Virus record (IMG/VR): IMGVR_UViG_3300023094_000009
Coordinates: 62,001 to 126,000 of that record
Source: a virus
Reading direction: 5' to 3' (one strand)
Length of the DNA stretch: 64,000 bases
Position numbers and translations under genes: made by a program. Below the pieces are notes generated by a model, which saw only the letters and a list, made by a program, of their open reading frames with translations, searched no databases and was not told the DNA's origin. Below, piece after piece: positions 1,268 through 64,000 of this stretch; position 1 is the stretch's first letter, and the number at the start of each line of letters is the position of its first letter.

Positions 1268-1468
1268 ATGAAAATTAAAGAAACTGAATACTACAACCTC
1301 ATAGAGGGAGAAGACGAAAATGGTGAATGGGCTATCCAGTTGAATAAAGCCAAAAGGGTTTGTCAATTAACATTGGAATCTGATGGTAATGATACTTATG
1401 TGAACCTTGACAAGAAAGAACTTCTCTTAGTTAGAGATTTGATTGATATACAACTTTTAAATATGTAA
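1268..1468 (+). CDS. Uncharacterised 66-residue protein
   Basis: A short acidic protein reading like a small mixed alpha/beta fold: alternating strands (YYNLIEGEDENGEWAIQL, RVCQLTLESDGNDTYVNL) followed by a helix (KKELLLVRDLIDIQLL). It sits two bases after the preceding stop and five bases before the start of the T9SS-sorted surface protein gene, so it is almost certainly co-transcribed with both. No family recognised. Confidence 0.6.
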   Translation: MKIKETEYYNLIEGEDENGEWAIQLNKAKRVCQLTLESDGNDTYVNLDKKELLLVRDLIDIQLLNM

Positions 1469-1473
1469 TTTTT

Positions 1474-3072
1474 ATGAAAAATTTATTATTAATTTTCTTT
1501 GTTTTCAGTTTGTTTTGCGCGAATTGTCAGCCATATGTTCACACTACGGGATCTGTAACAACATGTTCCGGTTTATTTTATGATAACGGTAACACTGGTA
1601 ATTACCTAAATAACAGTAATGTAACTCAAACCTTTGTGCCACCTTCCTCTTGCTCTGCACTAAGTGTGACGTTTTCAGCATTTAATGTAGAGGCGGGTTA
1701 TGATTTTCTATATGTATATAATGGAAATTCCACAAGTGCTCCTTTGATAGGGACTTATACTGGAACTACCCTCCCTTCAACCATAGTTTCTTCCTCAACT
1801 GATGGTTCTTTAACTTTTAGGTTCACATCAGATAATACCCAACGTAGAGCTGGGTGGGTGGCTTCTTTCTCCTGTATCACAAAACTAACCTTAAATGCAG
1901 GAGTTGATAAAACAGTAAGTTGTCACGGTAATACTACTATGTCAGCAACTGCAACAACTTTAGGTTTCACTGGTTCCACAACTTACCAACAAAATCTAAT
2001 GCCTGTCGGAAGTTATGTAACAGATGCTTCAAATACAGAAGTTGGAGTTACTTTAAGTGGAGCACCTGTAGGAGCAACTATCACAAGTGTTACTTTTACT
2101 CCTCAATCATATGTTACTCCTTGTACTTTTCCTTGCGGATTTACTTTGTGTTACCAGTATAACTCTTGGGTGAGAATGGAATATTGGAACGGATCTTCGT
2201 GGATAGTCATAACTACATGCAATTCCCCTGTAACTATTAGTAATTTTAATGGTAATGCTGTAAACGGTCAAAACATTAAAATAAGGACTATTAATATTGA
2301 TGCTTTTTCAGACTATGTCTACACTGATTTATCTAATGTTACTGCAACCTATCAATACAACCCCACTATTACTTATTCTTGGTCACCCAATACTGTAAAC
2401 GGATACACCACTCTTTCTAGTGTTACAATACTTAACCCAACTGTCACTCCTGCTAATACAACACTCTACACTTTAACTGCAACATCAAATGGATGTTCTG
2501 CGTCTGATGCTGTCCTCATCACTATGCCTTGTGCATTACCTGTTGAACTTACTAATTTTTCAGCTCATTGTCAAAGTGGGATTTCTTTTATTAAGTGGGA
2601 AACAGCTTCTGAGAGTAATTCTGATTATTTTTTAGTGGAAAATTCAAGGGATGGGGAAAGTTGGACAGTGGTTAATTCTGTGGGGGGGGCTGGTAATTCA
2701 AATAGTCCTAATTCTTATGAAACTGTTGATTATTCTTTTCGCGGAGAAACAAGTTACTACAGACTTAGGCAAGTTGACTTTGATGGAAATTTTGAAGTGT
2801 TTGAGCCTGTAAGTGTTTCTTGTGAGGAAGAGGAAGACAGAATCTCAATTCATCCAAATCCTAACACTGGAAAATTCTTTTTGGAAATATACTCAGAGAA
2901 AGATAAGGGAATGCAAGATGTAAACTTAATAGACAATACTGGACGACTAGTTAAGACTAGGAAGATTGACATTAATAATGGAACGACAGTGGTTAATTTT
3001 ACCATTGATTTACCAAGCGGAGTTTACTTACTTTCTGTTTCAGGAATGAATCAAAAATTTATAATTGAATGA
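1474..3072 (+). CDS. T9SS-exported CUB-like surface protein with type A sorting domain
   Basis: The 532-residue protein has an N-terminal signal peptide (MKNLLLIFFVFSLFCANC), a CUB-like domain at about residues 25-137 (DFLYVYNGNSTSAPLIGTY, then a GW-x-ASFSC ending), a low-complexity beta-rich middle, a fibronectin-like module at about 354-448 (PVELTNFSA, FIKWETASE, YYRLRQVDFDGNFE) and a C-terminal domain at about 457-532 (ISIHPNPNTGKF to SGVYLLSV, ending KFIIE). That tail has the layout of the Por/T9SS type A sorting domain (TIGR04183 family), which sends proteins across the outer membrane in Bacteroidota. The stop overlaps the next start (ATGA), so it is embedded in the phage operon. A run of eight G at 2682-2689 lies before the fibronectin-like/sorting part. 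Family features are seen; a role in host surface remodelling or superinfection blocking is inference. Confidence 0.85.
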   Translation: MKNLLLIFFVFSLFCANCQPYVHTTGSVTTCSGLFYDNGNTGNYLNNSNVTQTFVPPSSCSALSVTFSAFNVEAGYDFLYVYNGNSTSAPLIGTYTGTTLPSTIVSSSTDGSLTFRFTSDNTQRRAGWVASFSCITKLTLNAGVDKTVSCHGNTTMSATATTLGFTGSTTYQQNLMPVGSYVTDASNTEVGVTLSGAPVGATITSVTFTPQSYVTPCTFPCGFTLCYQYNSWVRMEYWNGSSWIVITTCNSPVTISNFNGNAVNGQNIKIRTINIDAFSDYVYTDLSNVTATYQYNPTITYSWSPNTVNGYTTLSSVTILNPTVTPANTTLYTLTATSNGCSASDAVLITMPCALPVELTNFSAHCQSGISFIKWETASESNSDYFLVENSRDGESWTVVNSVGGAGNSNSPNSYETVDYSFRGETSYYRLRQVDFDGNFEVFEPVSVSCEEEEDRISIHPNPNTGKFFLEIYSEKDKGMQDVNLIDNTGRLVKTRKIDINNGTTVVNFTIDLPSGVYLLSVSGMNQKFIIE

Positions 3073-3372
3073 AATTAAAAAACTTATTCAGAAAAAAAGG
3101 TTCTGGAACCACTTCCTGTAATTCTAAAAGAAACTAAATACAATATTCTTCTAGAGATTTTTGAAAAGACAGAACTTGAATTAGAAATTGACAGATATTT
3201 TGGGCGTGAAGGCAAAAATACAATTCTTTACAACAATGTAAGAAAGACCTATGAAAAATATATGTGGGAGTATGCAAGCGAGAGCATAACAATTTTAACA
3301 AACCAACTTCCCACGCAAATTTGGAAAGTAATGAATCACACAATACAAATTAAAAACACAAATAATGAATAA
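3069..3372 (+). pseudogene. Small gene interrupted by a +1 frameshift at an A7 tract
   Basis: An ATG at 3069 overlaps the stop of the T9SS-sorted gene (ATGA) and opens a frame reading MKLKNLFRKK before stopping at codon 23. The +1 frame is open from the A7 run (3092-3098) to a TAA at 3370-3372 and reads VLEPLPVILKETKYNIL and onward, ending KNTNNE, about 90 residues that look like normal protein. Removing one A would give a continuous protein of about 100 residues. The downstream end overlaps the next gene's ATG (3365), as a real gene here would. It may be a genuine mutation, a homopolymer sequencing error, or less likely programmed +1 slippage. Confidence 0.6.
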
Positions 3373-4037: not shown

Positions 4038-4307
4038 ATGAAGAATTTAACACCAATCTTAGAAGCGATTGAACATACGAGAAAAAGAATACATTTTTTG
4101 ATTGATACTAATACATTAACCATTGATTCAATTGTGATAAATGAATTGAAATGTCAAATTGAAATGCTGGAATCCCTCTTGCCAAAGGAGCGGGAAGTTA
4201 TTGAATCAGCCTTTGAATCAGCAATTCATTGTATTGAGGGTCATGACTGGGAGTATACAAAAGATCGAACAGAATATTTCAACGAAACATTCAACACAGA
4301 GTTATGA
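4038..4307 (+). CDS. Uncharacterised helical 89-residue protein
   Basis: An all-helical-looking protein (LTPILEAIEHTRKRIHFLIDTN, then CQIEMLESLLPKEREVIESAFESAIHCIEG, then YTKDRTEYFNETF). This three-helix acidic layout is seen in many small phage proteins of unknown function. It is the first gene after the 4026 promoter and its start codon sits essentially at the predicted transcription start. It overlaps the primase-like gene by ATGA, so the two are coupled. Confidence 0.65.
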   Translation: MKNLTPILEAIEHTRKRIHFLIDTNTLTIDSIVINELKCQIEMLESLLPKEREVIESAFESAIHCIEGHDWEYTKDRTEYFNETFNTEL

Positions 4308-5218
4308 GCTTAGAGTCTATCAAGTTCCAATATTTTTCTGCGAATGTGTATGATACTTCTGTTTTGGGAAAAGTTTCTTTGTCTGACTTCATTAGAGCCA
4401 ATAAAAATCCTAAGCCTCGAGTAAAGGAAATCTTCAAGCAAATTGAGGAAGCGACTCTGGCGGGGGATTTAAAACTGAAAGGTAAACTAAAAACAGAAAA
4501 TCTTGTTTACTTTTGTCCTGCTTGTATGTTCCAATCGAGAAGGAGAAATGATGACATTATTTCAATAAATCCTATACTAGTTTTGGATTTTGACGGCTTA
4601 GACAATGCAGAGGAATTTAAGCAGTTCTTATTTGACTCTTGTTCTTTTATTATTTGTTGCTATTTATCACCCTCAAAATCAGGAGTTAAGGCATTGGTCT
4701 TGTTAGAAGATGGTATTGAAACTATAGAGGAGTGGAAAAGTTATTACTATGGATTAGCTTACTATATGTGTAAATACAAAGGCTTTGATTCCTCCTCCTC
4801 CTCAATATCGTTGCCTCTTTTCCTCTCCTATGATGAAAATCTCCTATATAGAGAAAATCCTACAACATGGACTCAAAAAGGAAAGAAAATAAATGAATTT
4901 GATTATAAGAGTGATGTTGAATTAACTTTTGAGGGAGAGAGAACTGAATATGAAAAGAACATTGTAAAAAAGAAAATTCGTACAATGATCGAGACTATTG
5001 AGGACAACGCGCACCCAACCGTCAGAAGCGTTTCCATACTCTGCGGAGGATACTGTGCATTTGGATACTTGACAGAGCAAGAAGCTAAAGAATTAATTTA
5101 TCAATTGATTGATGAAAATTCTTATACTTGTCAGAAGGCTAACAACTATAAAAAAACTGTTGATAAATTTCTAGTAGATGGTATGAAGCGACCTCTAGAA
5201 TTAGAACTAAACAATTGA
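4304..5218 (+). CDS. BT4734/VirE-N-like primase-type protein
   Basis: The 304-residue product resembles the BT4734-like (VirE N-terminal) domain found in Bacteroidota mobile elements, which is related to archaeo-eukaryotic primases. Visible hallmarks are a DFDG acidic motif at residues 95-98 (LVLDFDGLDNAEEFKQFLF), the following YLSPSKSGVKALVLL at about 120-134 where the family has its S-x-x-x-G stretch, and LPLFLSYDENLLYREN at about 170-185, the family's FxSYDP-like segment. A C-terminal helical region follows; no helicase or zinc domain is fused. A CPAC pair at 71-74 is unusual. It may prime phage DNA synthesis or act as a replication initiator; that role is inferred. It lies in the promoter unit starting at 4026. 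Confidence 0.65.
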   Translation: MSLESIKFQYFSANVYDTSVLGKVSLSDFIRANKNPKPRVKEIFKQIEEATLAGDLKLKGKLKTENLVYFCPACMFQSRRRNDDIISINPILVLDFDGLDNAEEFKQFLFDSCSFIICCYLSPSKSGVKALVLLEDGIETIEEWKSYYYGLAYYMCKYKGFDSSSSSISLPLFLSYDENLLYRENPTTWTQKGKKINEFDYKSDVELTFEGERTEYEKNIVKKKIRTMIETIEDNAHPTVRSVSILCGGYCAFGYLTEQEAKELIYQLIDENSYTCQKANNYKKTVDKFLVDGMKRPLELELNN

Positions 5219-7125: not shown

Positions 7126-7352
7126 AGAAATGTTTCAGGTGTAAGCTACAAAAATCTCTTTCAGCATTCGATGTAGACAGAAGGAAATACCAACTACCAT
7201 CGGATCTTGGCACTTGTAAGGTTTGTATCAAATGTAACTTAGAAAGAGCATTAAAGGACTTGTCTACCATTAAATTTAACTTTGAAGATAATAAATTTGA
7301 AGTGAAAAAGTTTGAAAATAAAGAAGAAGCAATCAAATATTTTGACAAATGA
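7122..7352 (+). CDS. Small zinc-ribbon-like protein
   Basis: The 76-residue protein starts MKKCFRCKLQKSLSAF and has a second cluster CKVCIKC at about residues 33-39, so four or more cysteines are placed to bind one zinc (CxxC-x25-CxxC). This layout is common in small phage zinc-finger proteins whose partners are unknown. The C-terminal third is Lys/Glu-rich. It overlaps its neighbours by four bases on each side. Confidence 0.6.
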   Translation: MKKCFRCKLQKSLSAFDVDRRKYQLPSDLGTCKVCIKCNLERALKDLSTIKFNFEDNKFEVKKFENKEEAIKYFDK

Positions 7353-7675
7353 AAATACTCTTTATATGCACAGCCAACAAAGATAGAAGTAGAACTGCGG
7401 AAATACACTTTCAAAATAAATACCCTCAATACATTTTCAGAAGTGCAGGGATAAACAAATATCTCAGTGAAAAACATGGAGGTATTTATGTACAAGAATA
7501 TATGCTTGAAGCAACAGACAGAATTATTTGCATGGAAGATATTCATGCCAAATGGTTAGATGTAACTTATGAAGGTAAATATTCTAATAAGATAGAAACT
7601 CTTTACCTTGGAGATACAGAAACTTTCATGTCGGAATCTTTAATTGAGCTTCTAGAAAATAAATTAACTATATAA
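7349..7675 (+). CDS. Low-molecular-weight protein-tyrosine-phosphatase-like protein
   Basis: The N-terminus MKILFICTANKDRSRTAE contains the C-x5-R-S signature of LMW phosphatases: Cys7 as nucleophile and Arg13 in the P-loop, followed by the helix that starts with T-A-E. At 108 residues it is shorter than typical family members (about 150) and lacks an obvious C-terminal Asp-Pro loop; D82 and D84 are possible general acids. Short versions of this family occur in Bacteroidota. It may dephosphorylate a host or phage protein. It is the last gene of the 5492 unit, followed by a terminator five bases after the stop. Confidence 0.65.
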   Translation: MKILFICTANKDRSRTAEIHFQNKYPQYIFRSAGINKYLSEKHGGIYVQEYMLEATDRIICMEDIHAKWLDVTYEGKYSNKIETLYLGDTETFMSESLIELLENKLTI

Positions 7676-28135: not shown

Positions 28136-29077
28136 TTATACATTTTTTGAAATGAGGTCTTTGTATTTCAGTCTTTTTTGTGCCATTTTCACGAGAGAGT
28201 TATTAAACTTTTGCCCTGCGTTGTCTTCGCGCCCGTTGAACCGGAAAGACATCTCATCACAATACATCTGAAGATGCTTGCGGGAAACATGGAAATAGGT
28301 TCCCTTGATGCTCCTCTTTAAATGACTCCAGAAATTTTCTACATTGTTGCTTGAGAAACCGCTTTCCGTGGCATACTGTTTCAGGTTGTGGTTTACATAC
28401 TGGTGGTCATAGTCTGCATTAAGTCCTGTGTATCCCATCCATTCATCTGTTACGATTGTAGCTCCGGCTTGCACCAGTTCTTTCACCAGTGGCTTCAAAG
28501 TTTCTCCCTGCGTATTTGGAATAACTCTTGTATATATCTTGTTGTCCTGTATCATTCCAAACACTGGAGTTTTATCCTTGTAGGATCTTCCTTGCGAATT
28601 TTTGACTTTCTTGTTTTTGTGGCGATTTTTGTTGCTGCCTCCTACAAAGCTCTCATCCATTGTAGCAACAGAAAGAGACTTTTCAGGAATAGCCTGAACA
28701 TAGGATGCACGAAGCCTGCTTAACATGAACCAAGCAGTCTTTTGTGTAACTCCAAGGTCTTCTGCAAGCTGATAAGAACTGATTCCACGCTTGTGAGAAG
28801 CGAAAATAAATATGGCGATAAACCATGTCCTTAGAGGAATCGGGGAACTTTCAAATATGGTTCCCACTCTTATGGTGTATCTCTTTTTACATCCTCCGCA
28901 TTTGTATAATCCGTTGAACTCTCCTTTTACATTCAGTTTGTATTGCTTTGTTTCCTTGCAATGAGGACACACTGGATTACCTTGCCAGATTGTGTTCTCA
29001 AGATATTCCCTGCAAGATGTTTCATCTGGCAATTGCTTCAGCATTTGAACTAATGATTTGAACTCTAGATTATACAT
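28136..29077 (-). CDS. IS1595 (ISXO2-like) family transposase
   Basis: Starting at ATG 29077 (an in-frame GTG at 29098 is less likely) gives 313 residues. The N-terminus has the IS1595 layout, with a CPHC and CGGC zinc ribbon (Cys 37, 40, 60, 63), then a helix-turn-helix-like GISSYQLAEDLGVTQKTAW and the DDE-type core: D141 in ATMDESFVGG, D211 in IVTDEWMGY, and the E247/N248 region in NNVENFWSHLKRSIKGTYFH. All catalytic positions are present and the length is normal for the family. I could not find matching terminal inverted repeats around it (see rejected items), so it may be a solitary or decayed element. It sits in the accessory island between protease and SRAP genes. Confidence 0.85.
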   Translation of the reverse strand: MYNLEFKSLVQMLKQLPDETSCREYLENTIWQGNPVCPHCKETKQYKLNVKGEFNGLYKCGGCKKRYTIRVGTIFESSPIPLRTWFIAIFIFASHKRGISSYQLAEDLGVTQKTAWFMLSRLRASYVQAIPEKSLSVATMDESFVGGSNKNRHKNKKVKNSQGRSYKDKTPVFGMIQDNKIYTRVIPNTQGETLKPLVKELVQAGATIVTDEWMGYTGLNADYDHQYVNHNLKQYATESGFSSNNVENFWSHLKRSIKGTYFHVSRKHLQMYCDEMSFRFNGREDNAGQKFNNSLVKMAQKRLKYKDLISKNV

Positions 29078-29187
29078 AACTTCAAGTTTTAAATACACTG
29101 AGAAGTTACGATATTTTACTGGAGTTCCCTAGCTTTTTAACATTAGTTACGTGTAATTATAATAAATTGTTATTTATCCACATTTCG

Positions 29188-29233: not shown

Positions 29234-29830
29234 ATGTGTTATCAAGTAAGACAAACTTCAAGTAAAAAGGATATTGAAAGAAGGTTTAGTGCCGATTTCC
29301 TTACTGTTATTCCTGATTATCAGCGTGAAGAAGTGAGTGGTTTCACGCATCCAAAAATGCCTGTTATTGCTAACAGCATGGTTGACAAAATACAGCTTTT
29401 TCAATGGGGACTGATTCCGCAGAACCAGAAAAATACACTGAATGCAAGAATTGAAACAATAAGGGAAAAACCGTCCTTCAGGAATTTTGTAAACCAGAAA
29501 TGTCTGATACTTGTTAATGGCTTCTATGAGTGGAAGCATGTACCGGGAGAGAGGCATGACAGACATAAATACCTTCTTTCGTTGCCTGACAACGGATCAT
29601 TTGCTCTTGCGGGATTGTGGAGCGAATGGGAATTCCTGAATGGAGAGAAATATAGAACCTTTACCGTCATTACTACAGAAGCCCAAGGTATAATGAGAGA
29701 AATACACAATACTAAGCTCAGGATGCCTGTTATACTCAAAAGGGAAATTGAAATGGATTGGCTTATGGGTAAGCGTACAGCTAAGCTTCATACGGATTTG
29801 GTTGCTACCAAGATTTTCCCTTTATTCTAG
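29234..29830 (+). CDS. SRAP-domain abasic-site protein (HMCES/YedK-like)
   Basis: The 198-residue protein begins MCYQVRQ, so Cys2 becomes the N-terminal nucleophile after Met removal, as in HMCES/YedK. Other family residues are present: N70 and R72 in LNARIETI, E99 in NGFYEWKH, and H158 in REIHNTKLRMPVIL. These proteins form a covalent thiazolidine link with abasic sites in single-stranded DNA and shield them from cleavage. In a phage it could protect replicating DNA from base-excision damage, for example uracil- or modified-base-specific glycosylases. It has its own promoter, and its stop shares a CTAG with the stop of the convergent XRE gene. Confidence 0.85.
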   Translation: MCYQVRQTSSKKDIERRFSADFLTVIPDYQREEVSGFTHPKMPVIANSMVDKIQLFQWGLIPQNQKNTLNARIETIREKPSFRNFVNQKCLILVNGFYEWKHVPGERHDRHKYLLSLPDNGSFALAGLWSEWEFLNGEKYRTFTVITTEAQGIMREIHNTKLRMPVILKREIEMDWLMGKRTAKLHTDLVATKIFPLF

Positions 29831-30057
29831 TTAAACAAATCTTTAAGCTCTACGTCCAGCGCTTTTGATATTTTGATAAGAGTCTTTACTGTTGGATTCT
29901 GTTTTCCGCGTTCAATCTCACCTAACTTGGATAATGGTACACCAGAATCAATGGATAAGTCAAGTTGCCTCATATCTTTTTCCATACGAAGAAACTTAAT
30001 CTTGTTCCCAAGATCTAACAAGTAGTGGTCATCATTCATTTGGGTACAATAAAGCAT
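29827..30057 (-). CDS. XRE/Cro-like transcriptional regulator
   Basis: The 76-residue protein carries one helix-turn-helix of the XRE type: NKIKFLRMEKDMRQLDLSIDSGVPLSKLGEIERGKQNPTVKTLIKISKALDVELKDLFN. An alternative start at M7 (30039) is possible. It is transcribed away from the lipoprotein operon, and two copies of a CCCTTATAAGG-type palindrome lie in the shared 178-base spacer, so it most likely represses that promoter and perhaps its own. No integrase or lysis-lysogeny partner is visible nearby, so this is probably a local regulator of an accessory operon. Confidence 0.8.
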   Translation of the reverse strand: MLYCTQMNDDHYLLDLGNKIKFLRMEKDMRQLDLSIDSGVPLSKLGEIERGKQNPTVKTLIKISKALDVELKDLFN

Positions 30058-30235: not shown

Positions 30236-30475
30236 ATGAAAAAGCTACTTATTATCACTTCAGTTTCTTTATTAATCCTCTCTTCCTGCAACAAGGACTA
30301 CAATTGTGTCTGCTCGCTTTATAACGAACAAGGGCAAACCGTAGCAACTGAAGAATACAATTCAACTCAGTACAAGAAAAAGGATAAAGACGAGGCAGAG
30401 AAGAGTTGCAAGGATCGCGATGTTGCGCCTAATGGGGCGTTCGGTGAAATGGGTCGTAAATGTGAGCTGAGATGA
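30236..30475 (+). CDS. Small predicted lipoprotein
   Basis: Starting at ATG 30236 gives a classic type II signal peptide, MKKLLIITSVSLLILSSC, with the lipobox LSSC and Cys18 as the lipidated residue. An upstream ATG at 30197 would bury the signal, so the later start is preferred. The mature 62 residues contain four more cysteines (CVCS, SCKD, KCEL) that could form disulfides, and a charged KKKDKDEAEKS stretch. It would sit in the inner or outer membrane facing the periplasm or outside. It overlaps the next gene by ATGA. Small phage lipoproteins often block superinfection; that role here is inference. Confidence 0.7.
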   Translation: MKKLLIITSVSLLILSSCNKDYNCVCSLYNEQGQTVATEEYNSTQYKKKDKDEAEKSCKDRDVAPNGAFGEMGRKCELR

Positions 30476-46607: not shown

Positions 46608-47344
46608 CTAACTGTTGCTGATTTTTGATTCTCATCCATATTCGGATTTTCATCTTTTGGGATTGAAACCACTGTTGACATTAATTCTTGTAAAGTCATT
46701 GCCCTTACATTTTCAAGTAGGAGATCTGTTATAGGAAATTTCATATCCCACAAAGACTTACAATCATCTTTTTTCTTCTTGTCTCCGCATCCACAGTCTT
46801 CCACTTCCTCTTCATTTATGGCAATCATTCGGATTTTAACTGCTTCAATGTATTCAGTGATGAAAAGGTGTCCGTCTTCTATAAAATAGAAATAATCGTT
46901 TCCCGGTTTCTTGTATTTTAATTTTTTGCGGTTTTTAATCAATTCTGGGGTGGATGAGATAAACTCAATACTGTCATCAATGGAGTTAATAGAGAAAATA
47001 GCAATACCTGTCCTTCCATAAATTGTTTCAGGTATTTTACTAGTGGACTTCATTAATGTATTGCAATTGCTCAAATCAACAGAACAACATTCAATCCTGT
47101 CAACTTCTTCCATCTCAAAACAAGGGATGACAGAAATAAGATCAAAAGCATTTCTGAGCTTGAATTCATCTACTCTCTGTGCTAGAAGCATCTTTGCTTT
47201 TGACTTCCCTATGTGTAGAACGCTTCGTCTGCTAACCCACGTATCTTTGGACAACATTTTCAGCTCATTTATAATCCCTGATACAAAATCACCATTTGTG
47301 GCACCTCCCATACTTGATGAGCTTCCTTTTAAATTATTTTTCAT
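46604..47344 (-). CDS. Conserved crAss-like structural protein (246 residues)
   Basis: Residues about 15-100 (GIINELKMLSKDTWVSRRSVLHIGKSKAKMLLAQRVDE, then IPCFEMEEVDRIECCSVDLSNCNTLMKST) follow a pattern I associate with a conserved crAss-like head-tail connector/ring protein: a Ser/Gly-rich start, K-A-x-LLAQ and C-rich receptor-like loop. The end is Gly/Cys/Lys-rich (EDCGCGDKKKKDDCK). Its ATG lies inside the last codons of the TnpB gene (11-base overlap). It is a virion structural component by position. Confidence 0.6.
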   Translation of the reverse strand: MKNNLKGSSSSMGGATNGDFVSGIINELKMLSKDTWVSRRSVLHIGKSKAKMLLAQRVDEFKLRNAFDLISVIPCFEMEEVDRIECCSVDLSNCNTLMKSTSKIPETIYGRTGIAIFSINSIDDSIEFISSTPELIKNRKKLKYKKPGNDYFYFIEDGHLFITEYIEAVKIRMIAINEEEVEDCGCGDKKKKDDCKSLWDMKFPITDLLLENVRAMTLQELMSTVVSIPKDENPNMDENQKSATVR

Positions 47345-48437
47345 AATTCTCTATTAGCGATTGCCCTCGCTGTTTAATTGTTAAACTTGCTTCAAAGTCT
47401 GCATTACCTTCATGATTGCATTTTATACATTTGAAGCTCTCTTGTGTTTTTCTGTTCTCCTTTGAGATGTGTCCACACTTTGAGCATTCCTGTGAAGTGT
47501 ATTTAGCATCTACCTTAATTACATTTGTTTTGTAAGATAAATATTTTCCAAATTTGTACCAACTGACATCCGAGATAGATTTTGAGTAATTCTTATCTTG
47601 AATCATTTCTGAAATTTTCAAGTCCTCTACAAAAACTGTTTGATAATTGTTAGCTAAACTTCTTGAGACTTTATGCAAGTAATCCTCTCTAACTCTCTGG
47701 ATTTTTAAGTAAACTTTTTTTACTTTCTCCACCTCCTTGTAAAAATTATTAGATCCTTTTTTCTTTAGAGATAATTTTCTTTGAACTTCAGCTAATTTAT
47801 CTGCATATTTTTTGGTTGTTTTTATATTTTCAAAAAACTTACCCTCAGAGGTAGCTACAAAATGTTTAATTCCTAAATCAATTCCTACTTCTGCTTGATT
47901 CTTGCATTTTTGGACTTCATGGTCGGTAATTATTTGTAGGTAGTACCCATCTGCTTTTTTGACTACTCTTGCTAATTTTATGTTTCCACTTATTTCTCTG
48001 CTTTTAAATATTTTTATTTTTCCTATTTTAGGTAAGATAAATCTACCATCTTTTTCAAACCTTAAACTGTGATGATTAGTTTTAGTATTTCCTTGCTTGA
48101 ATTCTATGGATTTCCAATCTTTCTTTTTAGCCCATTTTGGTGGATTTGTTTTAACACCTTTTTTTAAATCTGCATAAAATTTATCGTATCCTCTATATAA
48201 TCTTTCGATAATTCCTTGTAGTGTATGAGATTGGACACCCTTAATCCAAGTAAATTCCTTTTTTAGTGCAGGTAGTTGTTTCATTAAATCAAACTTACCT
48301 AAGCTTAAACCTTGTGAATAAGCATATTCCTTTGTTTCTTTCGCTAAATTATACACACAACGAGTTGTATTTAAATGGTCTTCAAACTTTTGTGTTAAAG
48401 TATGGGTTGTTTTTATTTTAAAGGTGTATGTGAGCAT
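47334..48437 (-). CDS. TnpB-type RNA-guided nuclease (IS200/IS605 family)
   Basis: The 367-residue protein has the TnpB layout: an N-terminal OrfB helical region (LTQKFEDHLNTTRCVYNLAKETK), the RuvC motifs GIDLGIKHF (D187), VFVEDLKI (E271) and NADFEASLTI (D347), and a zinc ribbon with Cys 318, 321, 337 and 340 (CSKCGHISKENRK, CIKCNHEG). All three catalytic acids are present, so it should be an active nuclease. There is no neighbouring TnpA. The gene interrupts the structural operon: its last codons overlap the start of the 246-residue gene by 11 bases, leaving no separate 3' region for the usual guide RNA end, which would have to lie inside coding sequence. Confidence 0.85.
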   Translation of the reverse strand: MLTYTFKIKTTHTLTQKFEDHLNTTRCVYNLAKETKEYAYSQGLSLGKFDLMKQLPALKKEFTWIKGVQSHTLQGIIERLYRGYDKFYADLKKGVKTNPPKWAKKKDWKSIEFKQGNTKTNHHSLRFEKDGRFILPKIGKIKIFKSREISGNIKLARVVKKADGYYLQIITDHEVQKCKNQAEVGIDLGIKHFVATSEGKFFENIKTTKKYADKLAEVQRKLSLKKKGSNNFYKEVEKVKKVYLKIQRVREDYLHKVSRSLANNYQTVFVEDLKISEMIQDKNYSKSISDVSWYKFGKYLSYKTNVIKVDAKYTSQECSKCGHISKENRKTQESFKCIKCNHEGNADFEASLTIKQRGQSLIENYEK

Positions 48438-48572: not shown

Positions 48573-50378
48573 TTAGTATATCTTGATGGCTACAATTCCA
48601 GCCTCATTTACCCTGACATTTCCTAAACTAACTCCTCCTGCCAAACTTCCCCAGATTTCAATCACATCTCCTGTGGTAGCTGTTGTGTAGGTTATAGTTT
48701 GGATATCTGCATCTCCCGCTGTTTGAGTTAATAATGTGAGAATTGGAATGTTAAACACAGCTGTGGTGTTACTTAAGTCTCCTGCTGTATTATTAGTCCG
48801 TCTCAGCTTAAACGTTGCTGAATTTGCCACTAAAGTTGTAAGTCCTACATAATCTACTTTAACATTTGAGAGAATCAAGTATGTACCTGCTGAAGGTAAT
48901 GTAACTGTAGAGCTTGTTGTTCCACCTGAAATTTTAGCTGAACTGGTTGTTAGATTATAGCCAGTTCCTGTTAAATATCCTGATGGGGAATTGCCAGAAG
49001 CTGGCGAAGAAGAAGGTGCTTGCCATGACACTGATGATCCGTTTGTGGAGAGCATTTTACCCGACTGTCCAGTTTGAGAAGGTAATTCTATTTCATTTGT
49101 CACTGAGCCGTCTACTTCTGCTGTTAAATATACACTGTTATCATAACTAATTGTTGTCCCTGTTGCTTTAACAAATCCGGCTCCATTTAACTGACTTTGT
49201 TTGCCGTTTACATTTGTAGTGAGTGTGTTTATGGAACTCATTGCTGCATTACTAGTCATAATTTTACCAGAAGGAAATGTATCTGATATAAGAGCATACT
49301 TAGCATCTGTTGCCGTTTTGGTGTAATAGTTTGTGTTGGCGGTTGCTGTTTTTAGATATGGTGACAGCATTGAAGATGTATCCGAAATATTCACTTTGAG
49401 ATTCAAAGCTGTTTGAGTGGCAGTAGATACTGGCTTGGAAGCATCACTAGTATTATCTGCATTTCCAAGTCCTACTTGACCCTTATTCATATTTGTCAAT
49501 AATGATCCATTTCCTGTCTTCTTTAGGTATGGAGAGAGCATTGTTAAGCTATCTGAAATATGAACTGAAAGGGGATCGGTTTCTGCTGTTAAGAATCCTG
49601 ACCCGTTTGTAAGTTGATTTGTGTTTGTCGGAATTGTAGGTTTATTTGTAAGATTATTGTAGTCTCCATTAAAAAGTGTCGGAAGACCGATCAAGTCAGA
49701 GTATAAACCACTTGTAGCTACAGTAGAGAAAGTAGGTTTGCCTGTAATAGCTGACCAACTCACTGAACTCAAATATCCATTCGGATTTGTAGCCCCATTG
49801 TAGGGTGTATAACCAATAATCGGCTGATAAGTGGAGGATGCAATAACTGATGTCAGATATCCAGCAGAAGCATGATTACCCCATCCAAAAGCTGTATTCC
49901 AATTGGTAACATTCGTTCCTGTAATTCCATGGGAAGGTGATGTTATCCATAAAGGATCTGTTTCAGTGTAGGAAGTCAGGTATGTTCCCTTCTTCTGCCA
50001 TTTACTAGTTGTGTCCGTAATAAGCAGATACTTGCTTCCTAGAGCAGTTCTTAACACTGTCAGGGAGTCCTTTACCTGAATTGGGGTTGTAAAAGTGGTA
50101 TAAGATATATTTTTTAATCTTCCTGATGGAGTAGAAATTACTAATCTGTTACCTGTTCCAGAAAGGTACTTGAATGCTACAGAGTCTTGGTGAAAATATA
50201 CATAAATTGAATCTCTTAATTTAAACCAAACTTTTCTGTTTCCCGAAGTGCTTCCAGGAGACATGGTTCGATACATTTCATAGCTTCCATCAATAGTGTT
50301 TCCATTTGCTCCTGTAGCATTTTGAGAAAATGTATTTAATCCAAAAAGTAAAAATAATGCTAAAATTGTGTTCTTCAT
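48573..50378 (-). CDS. Tail-fibre-like protein with an N-terminal signal peptide
   Basis: The first 19 residues (MKNTILALFLLFGLNTFSQ) look like a Bacteroidota signal peptide, unusual for a phage fibre. The middle (about residues 130-300) is built from fibre-type repeats such as YNGATNPNGYLS, VSWSAITGKPTFST and NKPTIPTNTNQLTNGSGFLT. About residues 480-601 form a TNF/C1q-like beta-sandwich (GTYLILSNVKVDYVG, ATFKLRRTNN, GNVRVNEAGIVAIKIY end) that would trimerise and bind a receptor. A terminator follows the stop. Whether the fibre is really exported, or the hydrophobic start serves as an assembly element, is unresolved. Confidence 0.65.
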   Translation of the reverse strand: MKNTILALFLLFGLNTFSQNATGANGNTIDGSYEMYRTMSPGSTSGNRKVWFKLRDSIYVYFHQDSVAFKYLSGTGNRLVISTPSGRLKNISYTTFTTPIQVKDSLTVLRTALGSKYLLITDTTSKWQKKGTYLTSYTETDPLWITSPSHGITGTNVTNWNTAFGWGNHASAGYLTSVIASSTYQPIIGYTPYNGATNPNGYLSSVSWSAITGKPTFSTVATSGLYSDLIGLPTLFNGDYNNLTNKPTIPTNTNQLTNGSGFLTAETDPLSVHISDSLTMLSPYLKKTGNGSLLTNMNKGQVGLGNADNTSDASKPVSTATQTALNLKVNISDTSSMLSPYLKTATANTNYYTKTATDAKYALISDTFPSGKIMTSNAAMSSINTLTTNVNGKQSQLNGAGFVKATGTTISYDNSVYLTAEVDGSVTNEIELPSQTGQSGKMLSTNGSSVSWQAPSSSPASGNSPSGYLTGTGYNLTTSSAKISGGTTSSTVTLPSAGTYLILSNVKVDYVGLTTLVANSATFKLRRTNNTAGDLSNTTAVFNIPILTLLTQTAGDADIQTITYTTATTGDVIEIWGSLAGGVSLGNVRVNEAGIVAIKIY

Positions 50379-61452: not shown

Positions 61453-62121
61453 TTATAGTCCGAAGAGTTCGCTGTTTGCTATCTGGTAGCTTGTTGTATC
61501 ACCACTTGACATTGAGAACAACTTGACCATAGCCATCACTACTATTGGGACTGCACTTTCTGGAAGTTCTGTGTCTATATCTTGTGATTCAGTTTTGTCA
61601 AGGTGTTTGTACCCAGCAATATCTGCGTCTGGAATCTCCCGATAGTAACTTAATTGTACTTCTGAAAGATTAAAATCTATGTCTTTGTAGACTGTTAAAC
61701 CATCTTGTGACATCAAGTACAAAGTTTCTCGGGCGAGAAAGGATGGTTTTGTGAAATTATCGAAAAGGTATTGGTGTACGTTCTCTGATTTAATCTCATG
61801 CGCTAAAAGTATTTTATTCTTACAATTAGCCTTTGTTGCTTTTATTGTGACATTTGAAAATTCAAAATAATCTTCTGGTTTTTCGTATGTCGTGTATGTT
61901 TCACTTTCTTCTGAAACGGATAAAGGCTTGTTTAGAGTAAGGAAAGGAGCCAACATTCTGATGGCATCCTCATTCCTTTTTTCTAATATGTAATTCTGAA
62001 ATCGCTTGGTTACAAAATTGAATAGTAATATAAACCTTGCTGTGTCTACATTCAGTTTGTTATTTGTAGCATTCTTTTCAATTAGTAACCTAAATTGGTC
62101 ACGGATTTCTTTAACTTTCAT
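61453..62121 (-). CDS. Connector/ring-like protein (222 residues)
   Basis: A helical N-terminus (IRDQFRLLIEKNATNNKLNVDTARFILLFNFVTKRFQNYILE) followed by a beta-rich segment with YTTYEKPEDYFEFSNVTIKA and a final helix (AVPIVVMAMVKLFSMSSGDTTSY). This is a pattern I recall for head-tail connector or ring proteins of Bacteroidota phages (helical clamp, then strands). Its start overlaps the 316-residue gene by 11 bases. It sits between the capsid and the large 844-residue gene, as connectors do. Confidence 0.55.
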   Translation of the reverse strand: MKVKEIRDQFRLLIEKNATNNKLNVDTARFILLFNFVTKRFQNYILEKRNEDAIRMLAPFLTLNKPLSVSEESETYTTYEKPEDYFEFSNVTIKATKANCKNKILLAHEIKSENVHQYLFDNFTKPSFLARETLYLMSQDGLTVYKDIDFNLSEVQLSYYREIPDADIAGYKHLDKTESQDIDTELPESAVPIVVMAMVKLFSMSSGDTTSYQIANSELFGL

Positions 62122-63177: not shown

Positions 63178-64000
63178 TTATCGAGCGTAAGTGTTGTCCA
63201 CTTCGATGATGACATTAGCTGTTGTGTCGAGCATCAACATACCGGAGTGAATAGATACCCAGAACTCCTGACCCATGTATTTCAAAGCACTTTTGATGTT
63301 TGAAACCTGCACCCCGTCATTCATACGTCCTTGCTCATGTCCCCAGATGATGTGTCCAAACTTTGGTTTAACATAGTAAAGATTGGCTTTTTTATTTCCT
63401 CCTTCTACCAGTTTAGCGTTACGTGTTCGCGCTGTTACATTTACTGTGCTTGGATTGTCCATTCCTTCAATCATCAAAGAGTAGGAAGTTTTCTGGAATC
63501 CGCCAAGACCAACAAATCCGTCAATCACTGTGTTGTTTGAAGTGAAGCCTTTAAAGTCAAATGAAGGATCATGTTTAAATGTAACCCAACCAACTCCCGG
63601 AAGCTGTGCAGTTCTGATCTTAGGCATCCCAACTGTAAGGTTGTTCAAGTCACCTGTGATAAGCTGTCTTCCGCCGTTGTTTAAATAACCCATTGTACCT
63701 GTAAGGATACCCGGCAATTCACCCAAGCGATTGATTGAATATGTATCAAGCAATCTTTCTCCGTTCATAACTGCCATCTCACCACCAATAAAAGTGATTC
63801 GTCTTTCATCAAGAGGTGTGTCAGAATTTTTGTAGTAGTAGGAAGCAGCCTCCTGCAAGTGGCTTACGTTCAATGCTCCCGGACGTGGATAAGTGATAAT
63901 CTTACCTCTACGTGCTTGGAACCAAGCTCCTTCTGTAATACGGATAACTCCGTTTGCTGTATGGATGGTTTCTGCTGTTGCAAACATGTTCATGAAAGAT
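63178..64000 (-). CDS. C-terminal part of the major capsid protein (cut by window edge)
   Basis: The frame is open to the right edge (the bases preceding the internal ATG at 63993 continue in frame as S-F), so the true start is outside the window. The visible 274 residues contain Arg/Gly-rich surface loops and an end (KPKFGHIIWGHEQGRMNDGVQVSNIKSALKYMGQEFWVSIHSGMLMLDTTANVIIEVDNTYAR) that looks like the C-terminal part of a HK97-fold capsid protein as in crAss-like phages. It heads the late minus-strand gene order, with a strong hairpin and a new promoter after its stop, which suits a highly expressed gene. Assignment is by position and fold-like pattern, not by search. Confidence 0.6.
   Translation of the reverse strand, partial: SFMNMFATAETIHTANGVIRITEGAWFQARRGKIITYPRPGALNVSHLQEAASYYYKNSDTPLDERRITFIGGEMAVMNGERLLDTYSINRLGELPGILTGTMGYLNNGGRQLITGDLNNLTVGMPKIRTAQLPGVGWVTFKHDPSFDFKGFTSNNTVIDGFVGLGGFQKTSYSLMIEGMDNPSTVNVTARTRNAKLVEGGNKKANLYYVKPKFGHIIWGHEQGRMNDGVQVSNIKSALKYMGQEFWVSIHSGMLMLDTTANVIIEVDNTYAR

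Follow-up and report, generated by a model that had tools for sequence, protein, structure and literature searches.

Within the genome of a large phage lies a gene for a 532-residue protein that has the build of a type A cargo of the type IX secretion system (T9SS), from a signal peptide at one end to a sorting domain at the other, and whose modules are kin to those of cargo proteins of cellular Bacteroidota. The C-terminal linker and sorting tag recur behind other head domains in many phages. We consider it fairly likely, with a probability of roughly 0.7, that this is an accessory phage gene whose product is exported by the T9SS of the host and alters the surface of the infected cell. The window analyzed here is a stretch of 64,000 nucleotides, positions 62,001 to 126,000 of a record of 141,284 bases, and coordinates refer to the window unless stated otherwise.

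Architecture of the predicted cargo protein

The frame at 1474-3072 encodes a protein laid out as the first-pass annotation had described it from the letters, with a signal peptide, a CUB-like domain, an FN3-like module, and a C-terminal sorting domain (CTD), all of which are present (Table 1). The hydrophobic N-terminus leads to a predicted cleavage site in which ANC is followed by Q, as judged from hydropathy and motif; the exposure of a glutamine by signal peptidase I, the Q-rule, is a trait of Bacteroidetes (PMC5837995). The profile search that had been proposed for the N-terminal part recovered the Pfam CUB family PF00431 at residues 61-132 (E 8.7e-11; 42.6 bits against a cut-off of 21.4), and given that the acidic residues E73, D77, and D120 align with cubilin CUB positions, calcium binding by the predicted domain is possible.

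The sorting domain itself, for which a similar search had been suggested, is supported by two profile collections: TIGR04183 of NCBIfam covers residues 459-531 of 532 (E 5e-9; 36 bits against a cut-off of 23), PF18962 of Pfam matches the C-terminus (E 8.7e-9; 36 bits against 27), and in a six-frame search of the whole record, this frame yields the single TIGR04183 match. The segments HPNPNTGKF, LIDNTGRLV, and LPSGVYLLSV..KFIIE belong to this domain. In the AlphaFold2 model of residues 353-532, which comprises the FN3-like domain and the beta-sandwich CTD, all secondary structure is beta and the mean pLDDT is 91, with most residues above 90; the Ig-like beta-sandwich predicted for the CTD is the fold expected of T9SS type A cargo. 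PorU from P. gingivalis, a T9SS component that carries a CTD of its own, heads the PDB matches to the linker-CTD model, with modest TM-scores, as expected of a model with two domains. A profile of the linker-CTD region retrieves the solved T9SS CTDs 8glk, 8glj, and 8qb1.

The modules of the protein have cellular relatives among Bacteroidota surface proteins, in general at 30-49% identity. Identity to such proteins is 26-38% in the C-terminal half, up to 46-49% in the CUB part, and up to 64% in the PKD-like part; the CUB domain together with the middle region is matched at 36% identity in one Bacteroidota frame of 2305 residues. The N-terminal part finds matches in 43 of the 297 sampled Bacteroidota genomes, and no full-length cellular homologue was found in this sample.

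Table 1. The cargo gene, its predicted domains, and adjacent genes (window coordinates)
Feature	Position	Strand	Residues	Remarks
Small phage gene upstream, same operon	1268..1468	+	66 aa	stops 5 bases short of the cargo ATG
Whole cargo gene, T9SS type A cargo-like secreted protein	1474..3072	+	532 aa	
Sec signal peptide MKNLLLIFFVFSLFCANC	1474..1527	+		predicted cleavage before Q19; sequence, hydropathy scan, Q-rule (PMC5837995)
CUB domain	1564..1875	+	31-134	Pfam match and cubilin alignment
Beta-rich middle region	1891..2367	+	140-298	akin to segments of large surface proteins of Bacteroidota
PKD/Ig-like stretch	2368..2532	+	299-353	likeness to Bacteroidota proteins
FN3-like linker LPVEL...YYRLRQVDFDGNFE	2536..2823	+	355-450	
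Type A T9SS sorting domain (CTD)	2848..3069	+	459-532	HMMs, model, PDB relatives
Candidate overlapping downstream gene	3069..3372	+		real only if broken by the A7 run at 3092-3098; 22-codon frame plus startless 96-codon frame
Nearby phage gene, BT4734-like/VirE-N	4304..5218	+		1.2 kb downstream of the cargo gene

The phage and the surroundings of the gene

The 141-kb contig carries TerL, a capsid-type structural protein, a family A DNA polymerase, GroEL, and RNR. Its capsid-type and terminase proteins are nearest to those of the Cellulophaga phages phi17:2 and phi4:1 and of csAssE-Sib; against phi4:1 and csAssE-Sib, the structural protein is 27-30% identical over 89-97% and the terminase 32-34%. 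Judging from these proteins, the contig is a genuine phage related to phi4:1, phi17:2, and csAssE-Sib, that is, a crAss-like relative. No capsid relatives in viral contigs were found by a single-sequence scan, an alignment being needed for this purpose. The gene of the terminase large subunit (130975-134031 of the record; L007:5975-9031) contains an inserted homing-endonuclease- or intein-like element (LAGLIDADG, Hom_end).

The BT4734-like gene downstream of the cargo gene has its only matches in records of Flavobacterium phages (12) and Cellulophaga phages (8), with best identities of 41-43%, and a single-sequence scan recovered no relatives of it in viral contigs. The virus is, on such sequence comparisons, probably a large phage of Flavobacteriia. 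In the light of the Q-rule site and of this neighbor confined to Flavobacterium and Cellulophaga phages, a flavobacterial, T9SS-bearing host is likely, so that the earlier suggestion that the host has a T9SS is backed, at the level of a host group rather than of an identified host. We searched 25 other virus records, namely, capsid relatives, the isolates phi4:1 and phi17:2, csAssE-Sib, and the contig of locus L002, and none of them has a PF18962 match over the cut-off; the cargo gene is therefore accessory and lineage-specific rather than essential to the phi4:1-related group. Weak matches to csAssE-Sib and phi4:1 proteins were rejected as relatives of the cargo, being devoid of a signal peptide. 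A related phage contig (G005) contains a lipoprotein-like frame of 123 residues (L077:1324-1695) with a sorting-domain match below threshold.

The first-pass annotation also took an ATGA overlap with the neighboring gene as a sign that the cargo gene is not a stray host fragment. An ATG at 3069 does overlap the cargo stop codon, but the neighbor, as printed, is a mere 22-codon frame (MKLKNLFRKKGSGTTSCNSKRN*), and an open frame of 96 codons without a start of its own lies at 3082-3369, in another frame than this ATG. Across the A7 run, this open frame would connect with the ATG. From the sequence, it is plausible that a real overlapping downstream gene is interrupted at the A7 run, and the break could be either an assembly error or a genuine interruption. 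The overlap is thus a weak argument against a stray fragment; the conclusion drawn from it stands on other grounds, given below. A search for the Bacteroidetes promoter motif TTTG-N18-22-TANNTTTG was uninformative (3 found, 3.5 expected).

Several other genes of this phage deserve mention in their own right. A small gene resembling low-molecular-weight phosphotyrosine phosphatases (7349-7675, + strand) covers the N-terminal part only of PF01451, and lipoprotein-like small genes at 30236-30475 (+) and L004:379-594 (+) are candidates for further phage surface proteins. An IS1595-type transposase gene (28136-29098, - strand; PF12762, E 1.2e-42) is embedded in the phage genome, and a SRAP/YedK-like gene (29234-29830, +; PF02586, E 9.7e-41) is adjoined by that of an HTH regulator on the opposite strand (29827-30057). 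An IS605 OrfB/TnpB gene (47334-48437, -; PF01385, E 1.3e-24), with a Cas12f1-like TNB domain, adjoins a fiber-like gene. A tail-fiber-like protein of 601 residues (48573-50378, -), encoded in the virion module, likewise carries a signal peptide and a Q-rule site (NTFSQ); a collagen-like, fiber-like protein with a signal peptide, which adjoins the cargo gene on contig L002, resembles it.

The linker and tag in other phages

When IMG/VR was scanned with linker-CTD alignments, first 12 and later 58 contigs were found to carry the linker-plus-tag cassette; it sits behind varied heads in about 40 distinct proteins, a count that is approximate given that some contigs are short and that IMG/VR can include host sequence, and in four huge-phage records besides. 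The heads are CUB, MAM plus PKD, GEVED, glycine-rich, and unknown ones, and a Q-rule-like signal peptide is present in about 30 of the 36 cassette proteins with a complete start (the scripted count of 31 includes at least one doubtful case, L210). Genes for PhoH, Gp23 capsid, thymidylate synthase, and tail fiber are among the neighbors; no consistent genomic partner was found among the neighbors in other phage contigs.

The phage tags are frequently short. Counted from a QVDFDG-type motif up to the C-terminus, the tail is 62 residues or shorter in 22 of the 39 distinct phage proteins but 75-109 in the cellular proteins read, with one outlier at 148 (Fisher's test of short versus long tails, phage against 54 cellular proteins, gives p about 4e-11, for proteins that are related and were sampled by similarity). 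TIGR04183 scores over its cut-off in the full-tail phage proteins and has no match in the short ones tested. No short tag was seen among the Bacteroidota proteins that were read, the shortest cellular tail having 75 residues; a short-form model applied to the 297 Bacteroidota genomes aligns mostly to the linker alone, and no cellular source of the short tails emerged from the best longer hits that were read in these genomes, all of which proved to be full-tailed. In the AlphaFold2 model, the short form continues after the linker as three ordered strands (mean pLDDT 91.5), the sequences of which match the final motifs of the normal tag. It is plausible that the short CTD is a candidate minimal tag. 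It forms the C-termini of L162, L171, L180, L156, L168, L173, L185, L188, and L189, and further of L203, L161, L198, L193, L192, L111, L112, and L106; L194 and L207, with tails of 32 residues, may be degenerate. Truncated assembly was rejected as the origin of the short tails, most of which recur with a common motif in unrelated contigs.

A broader reading, to which we give somewhat less than even odds, is that Bacteroidota phages as a group use a standard export cassette that rewrites the secretome, and that over half of these cassettes end in a phage-specific short CTD invisible to TIGR04183 and PF18962. The cassette would then consist of a Q-rule signal peptide, a variable head, an FN3-like linker, and a CTD, with the 532-residue protein as the full-CTD version, and the short CTD, of about three strands, would be reduced to the segments matching the terminal strands of the normal tag. 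No report of a cassette recurring with a short tag confined to phages turned up in the open-access literature searched.

Export route, alternative explanations, and known systems

We propose that the 532-residue protein would be made in the infected cell and cross the inner membrane by Sec, that signal peptidase I would cut before Q19, and that the host type IX system would then take up the protein via its type A CTD, by the PorV/SprA route. Considering what is known of T9SS biology, export by this system appears highly probable. By the same biology, the mature CUB, PKD-like, and FN3-like protein would be expected to come to rest on the surface of the host or immediately outside it. A type A CTD is enough for export, the outcome of which is static anchoring or release (PMC12618676). 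The cargo architecture accordingly agrees with the first-pass claim of export via the T9SS, whereas the destination named there, the outer surface, is too narrow, and "surface or medium" is preferable because the type A tag permits anchoring as well as release. The exported protein would most likely bind glycans or proteins and so alter the surface of the infected cell, and we hold such a surface-modifying role of the predicted cargo to be reasonably likely. Superinfection exclusion or receptor masking would be the leading role, although superinfection exclusion in particular is a tentative guess.

Export could also serve other ends. Adhesion, cell aggregation, or a hold on polysaccharide that aids progeny spread, or else a benefit to the host in slow infection, is a possible but doubtful alternative: heads such as CUB and PKD are typically found in Bacteroidota proteins that adhere or bind substrates, and other phages carry MAM, GEVED, and glycine-rich heads, but the cassette loci of other phages lack a consistent neighbor indicating timing. 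Far less probable is a virion component, either an Ig/FN3-like decoration or an adsorption fiber, the CTD-like end of which would be just another Ig fold. Phage virions commonly display Ig and FN3 folds, and many phage Ig-fold proteins are among the weak fold matches in BFVD. However, the 532-residue protein begins with a signal peptide and a Q-rule site, its CTD exceeds a curated sorting-domain cut-off instead of showing fold likeness alone, and its gene lies among small non-structural genes on the + strand, outside the virion module, which occupies the - strand.

It is likewise improbable that the gene strayed in or was recently captured from a host, or arose from an assembly join, and has no role in the phage. 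Such an origin would account for modules that resemble Bacteroidota surface proteins, for related phages without the gene, and for a dip of GC skew within it. Against it speak the position of the gene, which begins at position 63,474 in the 141,284-base record, flanked by phage genes of which the upstream one is only 5 bases away; its codon usage, with a score of -1.012 compared with a phage mean of -0.986 (sd 0.052; rank 11 of 42); the lack, in the genomes sampled, of a full-length cellular homologue; and the same architecture in many unrelated phages. After the fourfold-site test, the skew dip was rejected as a sign of recent capture: codon usage and the GC skew at fourfold sites are both ordinary for this phage genome, and the dip thus reflects amino-acid content, T and S making up 25% of the residues. 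The first-pass view that this is no stray host fragment is therefore upheld, by the phage nature of the contig, the mid-contig place of the gene, its close upstream neighbor, and its codon usage.

If the cargo is exported as we propose, phages use host outer-membrane secretion to change what an infected cell displays to phages and neighbors, by a route that is almost unstudied in comparison with lipoprotein-based superinfection exclusion. In the short CTD, nature has supplied a means of testing the minimal tag needed by the T9SS, and for annotators, this form means that current HMMs overlook about half of such phage proteins.

The idea of phage-encoded T9SS cargo is not new, having been reported for crAss-like phages in 2019 (PMC6949934) and for Cryophage in 2020 (PMC7468147), and the 532-residue protein is a further example. 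Cryophage likewise encodes proteins with T9SS type A sorting domains, for which its authors (Bellas et al. 2020, PMC7468147) proposed hijacking of the host system and superinfection exclusion; its heads are endoglucanase, GH39, and PA14, in contrast to the CUB, PKD-like, and FN3-like protein of a phi4:1-related phage described here. Cluster 2 of the crAss-like gut phages also consists of Bacteroidetes phages with sorting-domain proteins, located near crAss-BACON genes, with one BACON protein itself tagged (PMC6949934); there, the heads are BACON, the phage lineage is another, and the annotation had no follow-up. Two proteins of uncultured Caudovirales in BFVD, A0A6J5NMN5 ("CUB domain") and A0A6J5M2J1 ("Secretion system C-terminal sorting domain"), share the FN3-like/CTD fold but have low identity (24% and 20% over the modeled part) and other lengths (658 and 260 residues), and are known from database annotations only. 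Among cellular proteins, T9SS type A cargo of Saprospiraceae and Flavobacteriales contains the same CUB (the up to 46-49% identity given above), PKD-like, and FN3-CTD modules, whereas the CUB-bearing frames of Bacteroidota are mostly larger, often 700-2300 residues, and match nowhere over the full length. What is new here is how widely the cassette is spread among phages and how often its tag takes a shortened form, one seen in phages only.
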